Below, in pieces: positions 12,513 through 19,039 of a stretch of 59,777 nt of DNA. Source of the stretch: an uncultured Methanobrevibacter sp. (GTDB taxonomy: Archaea > Methanobacteriota > Methanobacteria > Methanobacteriales > Methanobacteriaceae); NCBI RefSeq assembly GCF_902788255.1, contig NZ_CADAJR010000008.1:1-59777 (forward strand), read 5' to 3'. The notes beneath the pieces were generated by a model, which was not told where the DNA came from, made no database searches, and saw only the letters and a list, made by a program, of their open reading frames with translations. A program made the translations under genes and the position numbers. Within the stretch, counting starts at the first letter, position 1; every line of letters begins with the position of its first letter.

Positions 12513-12548
12513 TAAAAAAAGTAAAAGAAAGAATGTGTAATTCTTTCT
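12513..12548 (-). terminator. terminator of fprA
   Basis: On the minus strand the stem AGAAAGAAT / ATTCTTTCT (arms 12526-12534 and 12540-12548, 5-base loop) overlaps the fprA stop codon and is followed by a T-rich tract (A7 on the plus strand at about 12514-12520). Confidence 0.65.
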
Positions 12549-13773
12549 ATAATTCTTTACATGCTTGAGCTAATTTTTTACCTAGCTCGTAGCTTGCTTC
12601 GTCTTCATCAGCGGTCGGTACGAAGTAGATTTCTTGGGTATCTACAATATCGAATCCGCAGTTTCCTAATTCTTCAGCGAGTTTTGCAGGAGCTCCTCCT
12701 CTTCCACCCATTGAACCGAAGGTAACAGCTTTTCTTTCGATACCGGTTCTGTTGAAGAGTAATCCTTTCAAGTAGTACATGATGTCCCCGATACTTGGGT
12801 ATGGTACATCGTTGATTGTAGGATCACCGACAGCAATACCTTTACTGGTTAGGATACTTTTGACGATTTCTGATCTTTCATCTTCATGCAAGAAGAAGAT
12901 TTCCACATCATAACCTTCACTCATTGCACCTTCAGCAATCTCGTGAGCCATTTGCTGGGTTGAGTAGTGCATGGTGTCGTAGATGATTGTGATTTTGTCT
13001 TCACATACACCGGTAGCCCAGTTTTGGTAAGCTCCGATAATTTGCATTGGGTCGGTCCAGATTTGACCGTGGGATGGTGCAATCATTTTGATTTGATCAA
13101 GTAATCCTAATTCCACTACTTCGTTTAGTTTTTTGAGAACTAATTTGGATAGCGGTGTGATAAGGTTTGCGTAGAACTTTTGAGCAGCATCCATAAGGAT
13201 GTTTTCTGGGATTTCATCAGAGAATCTTTTGGTGAAACATAAGTGTTGACCGAATGCGTCGTTAGGGAATAAAATACCGGTCTCATCAGCAAGTAATGTG
13301 AACATGCTGTCAGGCCAGTGTAAGAGGAATGCGTCGAGGAACGCTAAGGTTCTTCCACCAACGTCTAAACTGTCACCGGTTCCGACGGTGATGAATTCAG
13401 CACCTTCTAAGGATGGGTAGTGTTTTAACAATCCTTTAACTGCAATTTCGGTACAGTAGATTGGTGCTTCAGGGAATCTTTTGTGTAAGTCCACTAATAC
13501 ACCTGAGTGGTCTTTTTCCACGTGGTTTTGGATGATGTAGTCAACTTTGACGTCTCTTCCTTCTTGTGCGAAAGCATCGTCGATACGAGCCATCATTTCT
13601 TTTGTTTTACCTGGGTAAGCATTATCGATTAATGCAACTTTGTCTTCACCGAAAACGAGGTAAGCGTTATAGGTGGTTCCGTCTAATGTGTAACCGTGAT
13701 AGGTTCTTAAGTCCCAATCGAGTACACCGATCCAGTATACTCCATCAGCTATTTTTTGAGCATTTGCTTTCAT
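12547..13773 (-). CDS. fprA: flavodiiron protein, F420H2 oxidase FprA
   Basis: Reduces O2 to water with F420H2, protecting methanogens from oxygen. The 408-residue protein has an N-terminal metallo-beta-lactamase-like domain carrying the di-iron ligands H84-x-E86-x-D88-H89 (NHVEKDHSG), His152 (LLHWPDSMF), Asp172 and a later SHGQIW histidine. It has a C-terminal flavodoxin domain with the FMN loop [11 protein letters not shown] and [10 protein letters not shown]. The start has GGTAG 8 bases upstream. It lies directly behind frdB but has its own promoter: TATA at 13846-13853 and a TTCGT/ACGAA palindrome next to it, the type of site bound by MsvR, whose gene is 10 kb away. Role is firm; the regulation is inferred. 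Confidence 0.95.
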
Positions 13774-13880: not shown

Positions 13881-14579
13881 TTATTCAGTTATTTTTTTCA
13901 ATAATTTATGGAATTTCCAAATTGAATGGCGATTCATTATTGAAATAGCTCTTTGTGTTTGAATATTCATTGGACAAACATTTTCACAGGCAAGAGATTT
14001 CACACAATCATTATAAAAATGATTACTGTAATTTTCTTTGAGAAACTTTAATTTATCCATATCACTTTCCTGTTTTGATATTTTAGAGGATGTCACAGGT
14101 AAAATTGCGCCATAGTAATTGTCTTCGCCGGTATAGTTAGGACAGGCTTCTAAACAGCACCCGCACATCAAACATTGTGATGCTTCATATTCAAATTCTA
14201 GATTATCCTGATTAATACGTGATTCTTCTTCAAGCCATTGGCGGGAATTTTTAATGTTTTCAAACATTGAGGTTCTATCGACAACCAAGTCCTTTACAAC
14301 ATGAAACTTGCTTAAGGGTTCTATTGTAATCTTATGCATTTTTTTGGTTGTTGCTTCTTCATTCACAAATGTTTTGCATGCAAGCTTTGGCAAACCATTG
14401 ATTATCATTGAACAACTTCCGCACAGTCCTTGAAGGCAACTGGACGAATAATGGATTTTAATATCATGTTTCACATTGATTCTTTCTAATAGAGTAGTTA
14501 CCGGAATGTTGAGATTGCCTTCATAAGTATATTCCTTCATGCCTTTTGAGGTTTTTATAATTACGGTTATTGACTCCAT
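13881..14579 (-). CDS. frdB: fumarate reductase / succinate dehydrogenase iron-sulfur subunit
   Basis: Electron-transfer subunit of a complex II-type enzyme. Residues 48-68 hold the [2Fe-2S] motif (Cys48, Cys53, Cys56, Cys68), residues 136-146 the [4Fe-4S] motif CLMCGCCLEAC, and residues 192-202 the third motif C-x5-C-x3-CP, usually the [3Fe-4S] or second [4Fe-4S] site. At 232 residues it is the short classical SdhB/FrdB form. It lacks the C-terminal cysteine-rich (CCG) domain of the thiol:fumarate reductase TfrB known from Methanothermobacter, so coenzyme M and B are not obvious electron donors. It follows frdA by 2 bases and is the last gene of frdC-frdA-frdB. The DNA looks more A+T-rich than the neighbouring core genes, which hints at transfer. 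Confidence 0.88.
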   Translation of the reverse strand: MESITVIIKTSKGMKEYTYEGNLNIPVTTLLERINVKHDIKIHYSSSCLQGLCGSCSMIINGLPKLACKTFVNEEATTKKMHKITIEPLSKFHVVKDLVVDRTSMFENIKNSRQWLEEESRINQDNLEFEYEASQCLMCGCCLEACPNYTGEDNYYGAILPVTSSKISKQESDMDKLKFLKENYSNHFYNDCVKSLACENVCPMNIQTQRAISIMNRHSIWKFHKLLKKITE

Positions 14580-14581
14580 TT

Positions 14582-16252
14582 TTACCAGCTCATTCTCTCC
14601 TCTGTATCGTTGAATGTAATTTTTAATTCATCATTGTCAAATGATATCACGGTTGTTTTTAGGTATTCCTCATTTGTTTCGGGATAATCTAATCTTTGAT
14701 GTGCGCCTCTGCTTTCTTTCCTTGCTAATGCTGATGATAGCATTGCTTTTGCAATATCTGTCAGTGATTTTAATAAAATGTAATCATAATAGCACCCATG
14801 ACTGTTTACATGAATTGTTTCAAGGGAATCCAGTTTATTCAATCCTTCTTTTAGTTCACTTTCCGTTCTGTAAATCCCCATGGTTCTGTTCATTATATTT
14901 GCAATTTCTTCTTCAATTTCATATGATGAAATGTTGTTGGCTTCTTTTTGCAGTTCCTTCCAATTTTCATAGGCTTCATATTCGTAGTTTAATATTTCAT
15001 ATTCTTCAGAACTATTATTTTCACATGAAATTTCTTCCAATTGATCAGCCACTACCCATCCACCGTGTATGGCTCCAAGCAATGAATTTCCTCCAAGACG
15101 GTTGGCGCCGTGGTACTGTGAAGAGCATTCTCCAATAGCGAATAAATTCCTAATATTGGTTTTATGAGTATCGTCTGTACGTATGCCTCCCATGAAGTAA
15201 TGGACGCCCGGATAAACTGGAATTGGCTCACGAGTAGGGTCAAGATTTAGATAGTTCATACAAACGTCATAAACCTCATCAAGCTTAGTTTTGACGGTTT
15301 TTTCATCCAAGTGAGTTAAATCTAAATAAACCTTATTTTCACCATCAATTCCCATGTTATCTTCATGACATACTCTGTATATGCTTCGAGATACAACATC
15401 GCGTGGCATTAAAGCGCCCTGTTCGGGATACCATTCTTCCATGAAATACCATTTTTCACCATTGCGCAAAGTGTATAATCTACCGCCTTCTCCACGGGCG
15501 GCTTCAGTAATGAGCATTCTTTTAACGGGGGTTTCTATGGTTGTTGGATGGTACTGTATCATTTCCATATTGGCTAATTCAATGCCCTGATGCAATAATT
15601 TCCCGCTTACAAATCCGTCATTGTGCAGGGATCCACTGATTTTTCCAAAAACCTTATTCATGCCGCCGGATGCTATAACAACAAAATCAGCATAAAAATC
15701 TCTTATTTCCTCTGTATTTTCGTTAATCATAACCACGCCACGACAGACTTTATTATCGTCCAATATCAATGATAAGAATCTCCAACCGATGTATCTTTTA
15801 ATTTTATCTTTATATTCCCATTTCCTGCATTCGGTGTTGATTGCTGTTAGTATCTGTTTTCCTGTTCTTGCACCGGCATAAGCTGTTCTCATCTTTTTTT
15901 GGCCACCAAAGTACCTGACATCCACATTGCCGTCGTCATCTCTTGTGAAACTTGTTCCAAGTTTGCTTAACCAATCGATTATTTCTGGGGCATCATTTGT
16001 TAGTTTTTCCACGGCATTATGGTTGTTGATATGTTGTCCTGCATTAATGGTGTCTGTATAATGTTCATTTACAGAGTCATCTTCTCCTTTAGTGTTTAAT
16101 GCGGCATTTATTCCGCCCATTGCCATTACTGATTGGGATCGTTCTGAATGCGCCGGTGAAAATAATTTCACGTGCATATTTTTGCTGGCGGATTTTACGC
16201 TACAGGTCAGTCCTGCAAGACCTGCACCAATCACTATAATTTCTTTTACCAT
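14582..16252 (-). CDS. frdA: fumarate reductase flavoprotein subunit
   Basis: Catalytic FAD subunit, 556 residues. It has the N-terminal dinucleotide site VIGAGLAGL, the FAD loop RSQSVMAMGGINAALN (38-53), the active-site stretches QYHPTTIETP, ITEAARGEGG, MPRDVVSRSIY and YPGVHYFMGGI, and the C-terminal FAD-binding AIGECSSQYHGANRLGG. In classical SdhA/FrdA the FAD is bound covalently to a histidine in RSH[ST]; here that position is Gln40, so the flavin should be non-covalent. In related enzymes loss of this histidine abolishes succinate oxidation but leaves fumarate reduction, so fumarate reductase is the likelier activity. It starts 13 bases behind frdC. Confidence 0.92.
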   Translation of the reverse strand: MVKEIIVIGAGLAGLTCSVKSASKNMHVKLFSPAHSERSQSVMAMGGINAALNTKGEDDSVNEHYTDTINAGQHINNHNAVEKLTNDAPEIIDWLSKLGTSFTRDDDGNVDVRYFGGQKKMRTAYAGARTGKQILTAINTECRKWEYKDKIKRYIGWRFLSLILDDNKVCRGVVMINENTEEIRDFYADFVVIASGGMNKVFGKISGSLHNDGFVSGKLLHQGIELANMEMIQYHPTTIETPVKRMLITEAARGEGGRLYTLRNGEKWYFMEEWYPEQGALMPRDVVSRSIYRVCHEDNMGIDGENKVYLDLTHLDEKTVKTKLDEVYDVCMNYLNLDPTREPIPVYPGVHYFMGGIRTDDTHKTNIRNLFAIGECSSQYHGANRLGGNSLLGAIHGGWVVADQLEEISCENNSSEEYEILNYEYEAYENWKELQKEANNISSYEIEEEIANIMNRTMGIYRTESELKEGLNKLDSLETIHVNSHGCYYDYILLKSLTDIAKAMLSSALARKESRGAHQRLDYPETNEEYLKTTVISFDNDELKITFNDTEERMSW

Positions 16253-16265
16253 AAAATCAACTCTT

Positions 16266-16814
16266 TCATAGAATATAATATGATAGTTCTGATAGGAACA
16301 ATAATGTGAATATTATAATTAACAGGATTCTGATAACTTTACTGCATTTGTCATAATCATTTTTTTCAACTAAAAATCCAAATGAGACCAATAATCGTGG
16401 AATGCTTATTTGCAAATGGATGAATAACGTTATAAAGAATAGTGTGTCGATAGTTAGATGAGTAATTTGCCAATTAAAATTTGGAATATATGCTGGAAGA
16501 TAAATGTATGATAAAACATGCGCTACAATAAAGATGATTATAAATATCCCACTGATTGCCTGAACTATCGTATCCTTATTGATATTGGCATATACATGTA
16601 TTTTTCGCTGTTTAATCTTGTCTTTGATGAATAGATATAGGCTTATAATTATATGGGCTATGACAAAGAATAATAGTACTTCACCGGTTACAATGGTATT
16701 TGGAGTGTATTCAATTAATCCAGCTAGTAACAATCCTGTTAATAAAGCATGAGATGCAAGTATTAAAATTATTATTATGACTAATAGTGAATTTAATTTT
16801 CGTAATTGAAACAT
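16266..16814 (-). CDS. frdC: membrane anchor subunit of fumarate reductase (SdhC/FrdC-like)
   Basis: A 182-residue protein with five predicted helices (about 10-33, 44-65, 88-108, 117-145, 161-180). Histidines fall inside four of them: His22 (SHALLTG), His54 (IAHIIIS), His99 (VAHVLSY) and His119/His133 (IHLQISIPRLL). One histidine in each of several helices is the pattern of dihaem cytochrome b anchors such as Wolinella FrdC. Methanobacteriales are thought to lack cytochromes and quinones, so haem binding and the electron donor are open questions; a haem-free anchor is possible. First gene of the operon; one of the 50-bp repeats lies about 130 bases upstream. Identification rests on context as well as sequence. 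Confidence 0.72.
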   Translation of the reverse strand: MFQLRKLNSLLVIIIILILASHALLTGLLLAGLIEYTPNTIVTGEVLLFFVIAHIIISLYLFIKDKIKQRKIHVYANINKDTIVQAISGIFIIIFIVAHVLSYIYLPAYIPNFNWQITHLTIDTLFFITLFIHLQISIPRLLVSFGFLVEKNDYDKCSKVIRILLIIIFTLLFLSELSYYIL

Positions 16815-17092: not shown

Positions 17093-17278
17093 ATGCCAGT
17101 TATAAGTTTTGATATAGGAGAATTAACAAAAGAGCAAAAAGAAATTTTAGCAAAAGAATTCAGCGAATCCGCTTCAAGAGTCACAGGCCTTCCGATAGAA
17201 ATGATATATGTGCTGTTCAACGAAAGGAAATTTGACAATGTTGGAGTCGGTGGTGTTCTTTTAAGTAATCAGGAATAG
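17093..17278 (+). CDS. 4-oxalocrotonate tautomerase-like small protein
   Basis: A 61-residue protein beginning MPVISFDIG; after removal of Met, Pro1 would be the catalytic base of the tautomerase superfamily, and the sequence continues with the family's helix (TKEQKEILAKEFSESASRVTG) and LPIEMIYVLFNE strand. The real substrate in archaea is unknown. A GGTGAT ribosome-binding site precedes the ATG. It lies between repeat copy 1 and the convergent HxlR gene; an operator-like palindrome lies 46 bases upstream. Confidence 0.85.
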   Translation: MPVISFDIGELTKEQKEILAKEFSESASRVTGLPIEMIYVLFNERKFDNVGVGGVLLSNQE

Positions 17279-17303: not shown

Positions 17304-17771
17304 TCATTTTAAATCCAATATTTCCTTATACATTTCTTTCAATTCTTTTTTTTCATATTCCGAATAATGTTCGTTGTCGACATCCGTTTCAAGAGCAAAC
17401 AGTAACAGTTCATAGAATACCTTATTCAGTGACCTTCCCTTTTTGGTTAGGAAATATTGGGTATTTTTTGGATCATTGCCCTCATTTGTCTTGTAAATAA
17501 GGCCATTATCCTGCATTGTCTTAAGGCATCTTGACAGTGCCTTGTTGTCCAGTGAGGGTCTGTTGACTTTAAATTCATTGAAATGGCTTTTTCCTAAAAA
17601 TAGGTCTCTTAAAACATGCAGTGTCCATTTGTTGCTCATGAATTTGAGAGTGTCTTCCAGTGGGTTTCGTTCATACTTTTTTTCGTAATATGCAAGTTTT
17701 TTTGGATTTAAAGTCATGTTTATTGTTATATATGTTTTAATATTAAGTTTTTTAGATGTCATTGATGCCAC
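17304..17771 (-). CDS. HxlR-family winged-helix regulator
   Basis: DNA-binding repressor/activator of the HxlR type. The core (NPLEDTLKFMSNKWTLHVLRDLFLGKSHFNEFKV, then DNKALSRCLKTMQDNGLI with KTNEGNDPKNTQYFLTKKG as the wing) is typical, including the usual ...KW...L..L..G..RF.E pattern. The frame allows a start at 17771, but a TATA-like TTTAAATA around 17780-17787 is only about 10 bases upstream, so translation more likely begins at Met19 (17717). It is divergent from an MFS exporter, the usual arrangement for a regulator of that exporter, and convergent with the tautomerase. Confidence 0.82.
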   Translation of the reverse strand: MASMTSKKLNIKTYITINMTLNPKKLAYYEKKYERNPLEDTLKFMSNKWTLHVLRDLFLGKSHFNEFKVNRPSLDNKALSRCLKTMQDNGLIYKTNEGNDPKNTQYFLTKKGRSLNKVFYELLLFALETDVDNEHYSEYEKKELKEMYKEILDLK

Positions 17772-17833: not shown

Positions 17834-19039
17834 ATGAATGATAATGAGATAGTCATGACTAAATTCCTGGCGATACTGTTTGCGATATGTTTAGGTCTTG
17901 CAATAGGTAATCTGTACTGGGCCCAGCCGTTGCTTGTCCAGATAATGGATGGTTTCGGTCTTCCCGCAGCAAATGGGGGACTTCTGGTTACTGCAACCCA
18001 AATAGGCTATGCGATGGGAATTCTCTTTATTTTGCCTTTGGGCGATTTTGTTCGAAGAAAACGTATGATAGCTATTGTAATGGTTCTGTCCGTATTGGCT
18101 TTGGTCTCCTGTGCCATATCTCCTTCATTTATCATATTGTCGCTGTCACTCTTCAGTATGGGGATTGTAACAATTTCCGGTCAAATCATATTGCCTCTTG
18201 CAGGGGATTTGAGCCGTGAGGATGAACGTGGCCACATCGTTGGAATTGTATCATCCGGAATAACAACCGGTATCCTCTTTTCAAGGTTTGCAAGTGGCAT
18301 CATTGCAGGATTTTGGGGATGGAGATCAGTTTATGTAATAGCGGCCGCCTTGAATCTGGTCATGGTTTTGGTAATGATTTATGTATTGCCGGAAATTCCT
18401 GCAAAAAACAAATTTAAATCATATGGGAAACTTTTGGCAAGTGTTTTCACCACCTTTAAAAATCATAGGTCCTTGCCGAACATATTACTGCACTCAGGAC
18501 TGATATTCGGTTTGATTTTCAACATATTCTGGACTTCCTTAACATTTCTTCTGTCCGCAGATCCATTTAACTATAACACGTTCCAAATTGGGCTTGTAAG
18601 TCTGGCAGGTCTTGCAGCGGCAGTATTTGGTGTGGGAATCGGAAAATTGCAGGACAAAGGCTTGAGCATACCTGCGCTCGGAGCGTTCATTGTGGTTTGC
18701 CTTGTTAGTATGGTGTGCGGCTTTGCATTCAGTGATTCAATAGTTGCCATTGTGATTGTTGCAGCGGTACTTTCAATTGCAGTTCAGGGAGTAAGCGTCT
18801 TGACCCAGACAAGATTGTTTAACTTATCTCAGGGTGAGCGCAGCAGACTGAATACGGTTTTTGTTGTGAATAACTTTATATTTGGGGCTGTCGGAAGTGC
18901 TCTTGCATCTCTTTTATGGTCATTGGGGGGATGGTCATATGTAATGATGGCAGCTAGTGCGGTTTCTGTTGCGGCATTGATTGTCTGGTTGTTTTCAAGA
19001 AGTAAATTTAAATATGCTGATGAATCATTGGATAATTAG
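17834..19039 (+). CDS. MFS transporter (drug/metabolite exporter type)
   Basis: A 401-residue, 12-helix major facilitator. It begins with GNLYWAQPLLVQIMDGFGLP and has the loop 2-3 signature GDFVRRKRMI (variant of GxLaDrxGrr) and a repeat in the second half. It resembles bacterial YgaY/YwoG-like exporters. GGTGCGAT precedes the ATG. It shares a 62-bp promoter region with the divergent HxlR gene, which probably controls it. Substrate cannot be told. Confidence 0.85.
   Translation: MNDNEIVMTKFLAILFAICLGLAIGNLYWAQPLLVQIMDGFGLPAANGGLLVTATQIGYAMGILFILPLGDFVRRKRMIAIVMVLSVLALVSCAISPSFIILSLSLFSMGIVTISGQIILPLAGDLSREDERGHIVGIVSSGITTGILFSRFASGIIAGFWGWRSVYVIAAALNLVMVLVMIYVLPEIPAKNKFKSYGKLLASVFTTFKNHRSLPNILLHSGLIFGLIFNIFWTSLTFLLSADPFNYNTFQIGLVSLAGLAAAVFGVGIGKLQDKGLSIPALGAFIVVCLVSMVCGFAFSDSIVAIVIVAAVLSIAVQGVSVLTQTRLFNLSQGERSRLNTVFVVNNFIFGAVGSALASLLWSLGGWSYVMMAASAVSVAALIVWLFSRSKFKYADESLDN

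Follow-up and report, generated by a model that had tools for sequence, protein, structure and literature searches.

Methanogens are split into cytochrome-bearing and cytochrome-free groups, with Methanobrevibacter and Methanosphaera in the cytochrome-free group. A stretch of 59,777 nucleotides from an uncultured Methanobrevibacter sp., referred to in its entirety as the window, carries an operon, frdC-frdA-frdB (frdCAB), for a fumarate reductase with a predicted cytochrome b as membrane anchor. The question is what such an enzyme is doing in this lineage, where it came from and how it would obtain its cofactors and electrons. The complex is probably a type-B quinol:fumarate reductase (QFR) that was acquired by transfer, is furnished with scavenged haem and receives its electrons from scavenged quinol or a comparable carrier. 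As far as can be judged from sequence, the operon is intact, its haem, cluster and active-site residues are conserved, its origin is horizontal and the genome lacks those haem- and quinone-pathway genes that were searched for.

Architecture of the FrdCAB complex

The three genes lie on the minus strand at 13881-16814, are intact without internal stops and are separated by gaps of 13 nt (frdC/frdA) and 2 nt (frdA/frdB), with frdC as the first gene of the operon. The features, with the codons of predicted cofactor-site residues, are as follows.

16266..16814, minus strand: frdC, 182 aa, five-helix membrane anchor, predicted dihaem cytochrome b (AlphaFold2, profile and Foldseek)
16749..16751, minus strand: codon of FrdC His22, predicted distal-haem ligand, counterpart of Wolinella His44 by helix order, invariant in 44 FrdC sequences
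16653..16655, minus strand: codon of FrdC His54, predicted proximal-haem ligand, counterpart of Wolinella His93 (invariance and profile alignment)
16518..16520, minus strand: codon of FrdC His99, predicted distal-haem ligand, counterpart of Wolinella His143 (invariance and profile alignment)
16416..16418, minus strand: codon of FrdC His133, predicted proximal-haem ligand, counterpart of Wolinella His182 (invariance and profile alignment)
14582..16252, minus strand: frdA, 556 aa, flavoprotein subunit (Pfam domains and conserved residues)
16133..16135, minus strand: codon of FrdA Gln40, which occupies the position of the histidine for covalent attachment of flavin adenine dinucleotide (FAD) (pairwise alignment; 'RSHTV' in E. 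coli FrdA, 'RSQSV' here)
13881..14579, minus strand: frdB, 232 aa, iron-sulfur subunit with 2Fe-2S, 4Fe-4S and 3Fe-4S motifs and no CCG domain

The strongest evidence for FrdC as an anchor with predicted haem ligands is the conservation of its histidines. The only invariant columns among 44 aligned FrdC sequences, which apart from one close relative are 20-49% identical to the window FrdC, are His22, His54, His99, His133 and Gly146. The four histidines are found without exception in 75 distinct FrdC (26 archaeal, 49 bacterial), gaps in partial sequences aside. The AlphaFold2 model (mean predicted local distance difference test score 91.9) has five helices, at residues 4-30, 38-69, 79-105, 113-144 and 151-180, and places the four histidines in helices I-IV, in agreement with an earlier note on this DNA that described five helices with histidines in four of them.

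A search with the single FrdC sequence reached no solved structure, and FrdC falls below the Pfam and NCBIfam cut-offs; a profile of the 44 rows was required. This profile matched the dihaem cytochrome b of the Wolinella QFR (2bs4_C) at E 4.4e-6, with FrdC H54, H99 and H133 on Wolinella H93, H143 and H182. His22 and Wolinella His44 are both in helix I and are paired by helix order, not by direct alignment. In Wolinella the distal haem is ligated by His44/His143 and the proximal haem by His93/His182 (PMC10739449). The best Foldseek matches of the model were complex II cytochrome b subunits, from the Chloroflexus succinate dehydrogenase and the Wolinella QFR (9lay_C, 1qlb_C), with probability 1.00 and template modelling scores of 0.62-0.67 but weak E-values of 0.006 to 0.07. 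Ten of the 44 FrdC relatives match Sdh_cyt and four the b558 family.

The same histidines bear on the alternative that the complex is haem-free in the archaeon, FrdC being merely an anchor and electrons arriving from a soluble cytoplasmic donor through FrdB. That Methanobacteriales make no haem (PMC13135261, PMC8351635) speaks for it, as does the E. coli-type (type D) QFR, which shows haem to be dispensable in the superfamily (PMC10739449). Without haem, however, the four histidines should drift, and they are invariant in every archaeal lineage, three separate acquisitions included, while nearly all else in FrdC has changed; a haem-free anchor is therefore disfavoured and appears quite improbable. 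The earlier note had posed acquired haem and a lipid carrier against a haem-free complex with an unusual donor, and the invariance across archaea and bacteria favours the first option over the second.

FrdB contains Fer2_3 (E 1.3e-26; 2Fe-2S) and Fer4_8 (E 2.3e-8; dicluster) domains, and among solved structures the Wolinella iron-sulfur subunit is its best match. Of 79 relatives, 78-79 retain each of the eleven cluster cysteines, and the third cluster has 3Fe-4S spacing, with Ser or Leu at the place of the fourth cysteine. The protein ends at 232 residues, before the CCG half that is found in TfrB, and its match to the 488-position TfrB model is limited to positions 2-212 (120.6 bits against a cut-off of 385), which bears out the three cluster motifs and missing CCG domain described earlier.

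FrdA contains FAD_binding_2 (E 1.7e-84) and Succ_DH_flav_C (E 4.1e-19) domains, and among solved structures its best matches are to fumarate reductases and succinate dehydrogenases. His235, Glu250, Arg284, His351 and Arg385 are identical in 100 of 100 relatives, while position 249 is Thr or Ser. All 100 relatives also have Gln at the covalent-FAD histidine position, a count that is not wholly independent as part of the set was found by means of a pattern containing the same motif. Histidyl-FAD, which is usual in complex II although outside the definition of type B, is thus absent from FrdA. Where complex II relatives hold FAD non-covalently, the flavin potential is lower, and such enzymes reduce fumarate and do not oxidise succinate (PMC9557727). 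Because its FAD would not be covalently held, Gln40 predicts a one-way fumarate reductase that works towards succinate only. The changed FAD site, like the missing E-pathway glutamate described below, went unnoticed in the earlier reading.

The three subunits, the five-helix complex II cytochrome b fold and the four predicted haem-ligating histidines would place the complex in type B, the class with a single anchor and two haems b, and the classical three-subunit membrane enzyme proposed earlier holds, with flavoprotein, three-cluster iron-sulfur protein and single anchor all intact. The type-B QFR of Wolinella succinogenes (FrdCAB), known also from Desulfovibrio gigas and Prevotella bryantii, likewise has one anchor of five helices, with four histidines placed in helices I-IV, the same three-cluster FrdB and the same FrdA active site, and is linked to the window complex by profile and fold matches. 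It differs in having a covalent-FAD histidine where Gln is found here and a Glu180 without counterpart here, in the length of FrdC (256 residues in Wolinella, much shorter here at 182) and in its host, which in the present case is reported not to make haem and lacks the quinone genes searched for. The order C-A-B was found again in most fetched loci, archaeal and bacterial; because this order recurs and the four FrdC histidines are kept throughout, the operon is beyond chance.

Thiol:fumarate reductase and the possibility of decay

The enzyme known for fumarate reduction in Methanobacteriales is TfrAB, which uses coenzyme M (CoM) and coenzyme B (CoB) thiols and has a related FrdA-like subunit and iron-sulfur N-terminal domain. 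It differs from FrdCAB in being soluble, without anchor, and in the extra C-terminal half of TfrB with its CCG domain. FrdCAB is not a TfrAB: FrdB has no CCG half and a membrane anchor gene, frdC, is present. The source genome has genes for both of its subunits at other places, TfrA scoring 842.8 bits (cut-off 718) and TfrB scoring 668.2 bits (cut-off 385), so that FrdCAB does not replace TfrAB.

The presence of TfrAB, named in the earlier note as something that would make frdCAB a decayed copy, is one argument for a redundant or decaying operon without present function. Others are the patchy spread of the operon (20 of 67 genomes of the genus) and the frameshifts in some copies from metagenome-assembled genomes (MAGs). 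In genome G032 (locus L069, contig C4, about 56.5-57.1 kb) an in-frame deletion fuses the first ~30 residues of FrdC to the C-terminus of FrdB, and this fusion is a relic of a lost frd operon. The window genes, on the other hand, are all full length and lack none of the cofactor or active-site residues, and relatives at ~60% FrdA identity retain the same residues and gene order. TfrAB was found and decay was not, and loss of function in the window copy is very improbable.

Origin and distribution of frdCAB

The phylogenetic analysis of FrdA (41 rows) places the methanogens in three positions. The main Methanobacteriales clade (support 99/95) joins Paenibacillus, Mageeibacillus and an Atopobiaceae MAG (100/99). 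Support is likewise 100/99 for the grouping of Methanocorpusculum with Clostridium aminobutyricum and a Lachnospiraceae MAG. Methanobrevibacter sp. OttesenSCG-928-I08 is found near a Faecalibacterium-Peptostreptococcus group (86/83). Approximately unbiased (AU) tests rejected a single archaeal clade (p 7e-43) and a single Methanobacteriales clade (p 1e-4). Tree and tests together indicate at least three transfers from Firmicutes to gut methanogens, in line with the horizontal origin that the earlier note had suspected. The window FrdA is nearest to Methanosphaera (100/100) and not to most Methanobrevibacter; therefore frd has also moved within the family. The GC content of frdCAB is 34.9% (frdC 27.9%) against 40.2 +/- 3.4% for the 32 other genes of the window; the A+T enrichment noted earlier is genuine, though moderate.

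The bacterial relatives share much with the archaeal operons. The frdCAB of Paenibacillus and Mageeibacillus (L093, L096, L094), which is sister to the main Methanobacteriales clade, has 53-54% FrdA identity and the same operon order and residues; it differs by its bacterial hosts and is known from sequence. The fumarate reductase of gut Firmicutes, Faecalibacterium included (L100, L103, L112, L130, L137), has the same gene order, the FrdA Gln and the four histidines, but a bacterial host, 44-46% FrdA identity and an upstream gene of its own (DUF6921). The Methanocorpusculum MAGs from cattle and buffalo (L102, L140) have their own separately acquired frdCAB.

The operon is not peculiar to the source organism. 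frdC is present in 20 of 67 genomes of the genus, leaving out two further weak matches (E about 0.005), and in 30 of 152 Methanobacteriota genomes belonging to 7 of 20 genera, normally as frdCAB. The named matches were to Methanobrevibacter, Methanosphaera, Methanocorpusculum and many gut Firmicutes. As most carriers are MAGs and the nearest outsiders are bacterial, bacterial contamination of the assembled genomes has to be considered. The source genome (2.20 Mb, 99.93% complete, 69 contigs) has, on the window contig, the archaeal genes for DNA polymerase DP2, SRP54, Pus10 and diphthamide synthesis, the operon is part of a closed chromosome of 2.87 Mb in G118 and of a 552-kb contig in G062, and the archaeal copies form a well-supported clade of their own. 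These points against contamination make it practically negligible. Contamination and decay were both rejected, on the evidence of archaeal context and intact genes.

In one MAG (G036, RUG11657) a window-type and a main Methanobrevibacter-type operon are both present (G036:C79, G036:C99), which may be a real duplication or a mixed bin. Immediately downstream of frdB in the window, on the same strand, is a gene for an F420H2-oxidase-like flavodiiron protein with ODP and flavodoxin domains (12547-13773, minus), which is not linked to frd at other loci. Upstream of frdC are a 61-aa tautomerase open reading frame (17093-17278, plus), an HxlR-type regulator (17304-17771, minus) and a major facilitator superfamily transporter (17834-19039, plus). 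Two genes named by eye, not by profile, are found near frdCAB in both Methanosphaera and Paenibacillus, one phosphopantetheinyl-transferase-like (L080:1407-2042, L093:4692-5381) and one YxjI/LURP-like (L081:3616-4107, L093:8397-8885); they are possibly a trace of joint transfer, or a coincidence.

Cofactors and the electron donor

The claim that the lineage lacks haem machinery agrees both with published surveys and with the present searches. AhbABCD was found in 0 of 102 Methanobacteriales (PMC8351635), and Methanobacteriota are without haem synthesis, the catalase of M. arboriphilus requiring added haemin (PMC13135261, PMC5467289). None of the 67 genomes of the genus has an ahbD above cut-off (best in the source genome 71.1 of 500 bits), and the weak matches are presumably other radical-SAM proteins. 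The M. arboriphilus catalase offers a precedent, being a Methanobacteriales haemoprotein that came from bacteria and relies on haemin in the medium, although it is soluble and not an electron-transfer complex; no catalase was found in the source genus. MqnA and MqnD were not found in the source genome. Its sole UbiA-family prenyltransferase is of the archaeal type, passing the prenyltransferase model cut-off and with geranylgeranylglycerol-phosphate transferases as the next matches; a MenA-like UbiA, through which the classical Men pathway was probed, was not found. Because the genome shows no sign of making either haem or quinone, the organism probably takes them from neighbouring microbes.

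We infer the haem loading, the donor, the direction of flow in the cell and the benefit along these lines. From an entry point in FrdC close to the distal haem (His22/His99), electrons would move on to the proximal haem (His54/His133) and then through the three FrdB clusters to the FAD of FrdA, where fumarate would be reduced in the cytoplasm. Haem would be taken from the surroundings, by analogy with M. arboriphilus and its catalase. The donor would be a quinol of foreign origin, in the simplest case menaquinol released by gut bacteria, as has been proposed for Faecalibacterium with the same enzyme family; this genus (operon L130/L137) lacks menaquinone synthesis, has fumarate reductase, depends on external menaquinone and is stimulated by that of its neighbours (PMC5738691). 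The benefit may be a membrane-linked path to succinate that spares the CoM and CoB thiols used by TfrAB.

Several observations weigh against a scavenged quinol and haem. The Wolinella quinol-site Glu66 region has no conserved acidic residue in the FrdC alignment, and quinone use is for this reason not evident from sequence. Coverage of the classical Men pathway was confined to UbiA-type MenA. No hydrogenase cytochrome (PF01292) is present there and no quinone-reducing partner was identified, other quinone reductases lying outside the search. No haem uptake gene was identified, and the predominance of MAGs among the carriers counts in the same direction.

The alternative is a dihaem enzyme whose donor is not menaquinol; electrons would then come from extracellular reduced flavins, from some other small carrier on the outer side of the membrane or from an archaeal lipid carrier not yet recognised. 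The position of Wolinella Glu180, the E-pathway glutamate, is never Glu in the 44 FrdC; the Prevotella QFR is also without Glu180, yet uses menaquinol (PMC10739449). Some Firmicute relatives, such as L107, have a gene for an FMN-binding lipoprotein (PF04205) directly ahead of frdC, and others, such as L100, have there a membrane-linked DUF6921 protein with a flavinylation-like DAITGAT motif (L107:4420-4875; L100:4936-5454; L137:4095-4658); this suggests, for bacteria, a flavin partner outside the cytosol. A CDP (cytidine diphosphate)-alcohol phosphatidyltransferase (PF01066) adjoins frdCAB in most of the methanogen loci that were examined. The source genome, by contrast, has no FMN_bind protein, the candidate extracytosolic flavoprotein donor, and, at E 1e-5, nothing homologous to the PF01066 neighbour; FrdCAB thus needs neither of them here. 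A donor other than menaquinol is rather unlikely.

The PF01066 gene (L039:6115-6612, L080:2500-3036, L189:8177-8671, L190:7046-7639, L192:5809-6369) is upstream of frdCAB in Methanobrevibacter and Methanosphaera and downstream in G082 and G114. Close homologues within the genus are nearly confined to frd carriers, the exceptions being G002, G007, G057 and G032, the last with its frd remnant. A shared haem-importer or quinone-reductase neighbour was sought across ~80 loci, and in archaea no neighbour recurs except the PF01066 gene.

Significance for cytochrome-free methanogens

What appears to be new is the combination of type-B architecture, non-covalent FAD and a missing E-pathway glutamate in hosts apparently unable to make the cofactors of the enzyme. 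No mention of frdCAB was found in the open-access literature on haem proteins, b-type cytochromes and gut methanogens (PMC8351635, PMC9478090, PMC13135261, PMC10658910), subscription journals being outside the scope. More tentatively, several gut methanogen lineages labelled cytochrome-free may run a partly scavenged respiratory module built on the transferred dihaem fumarate reductase, with haem and quinone both from the gut community; it would be their second redox site in the membrane, next to the Na+-pumping methyltransferase Mtr.

A conserved b-type cytochrome gene in about a fifth of the sampled species of the phylum breaks the division into cytochrome-bearing and cytochrome-free methanogens at the gene level, and predicts dependence on the haem and, probably, the quinone of neighbours. 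If active, the enzyme would tie rumen methanogens to bacterial vitamin K2 and haem, would bear on their growth requirements in culture and would link methane producers to a fumarate-succinate route that competes for reducing power.

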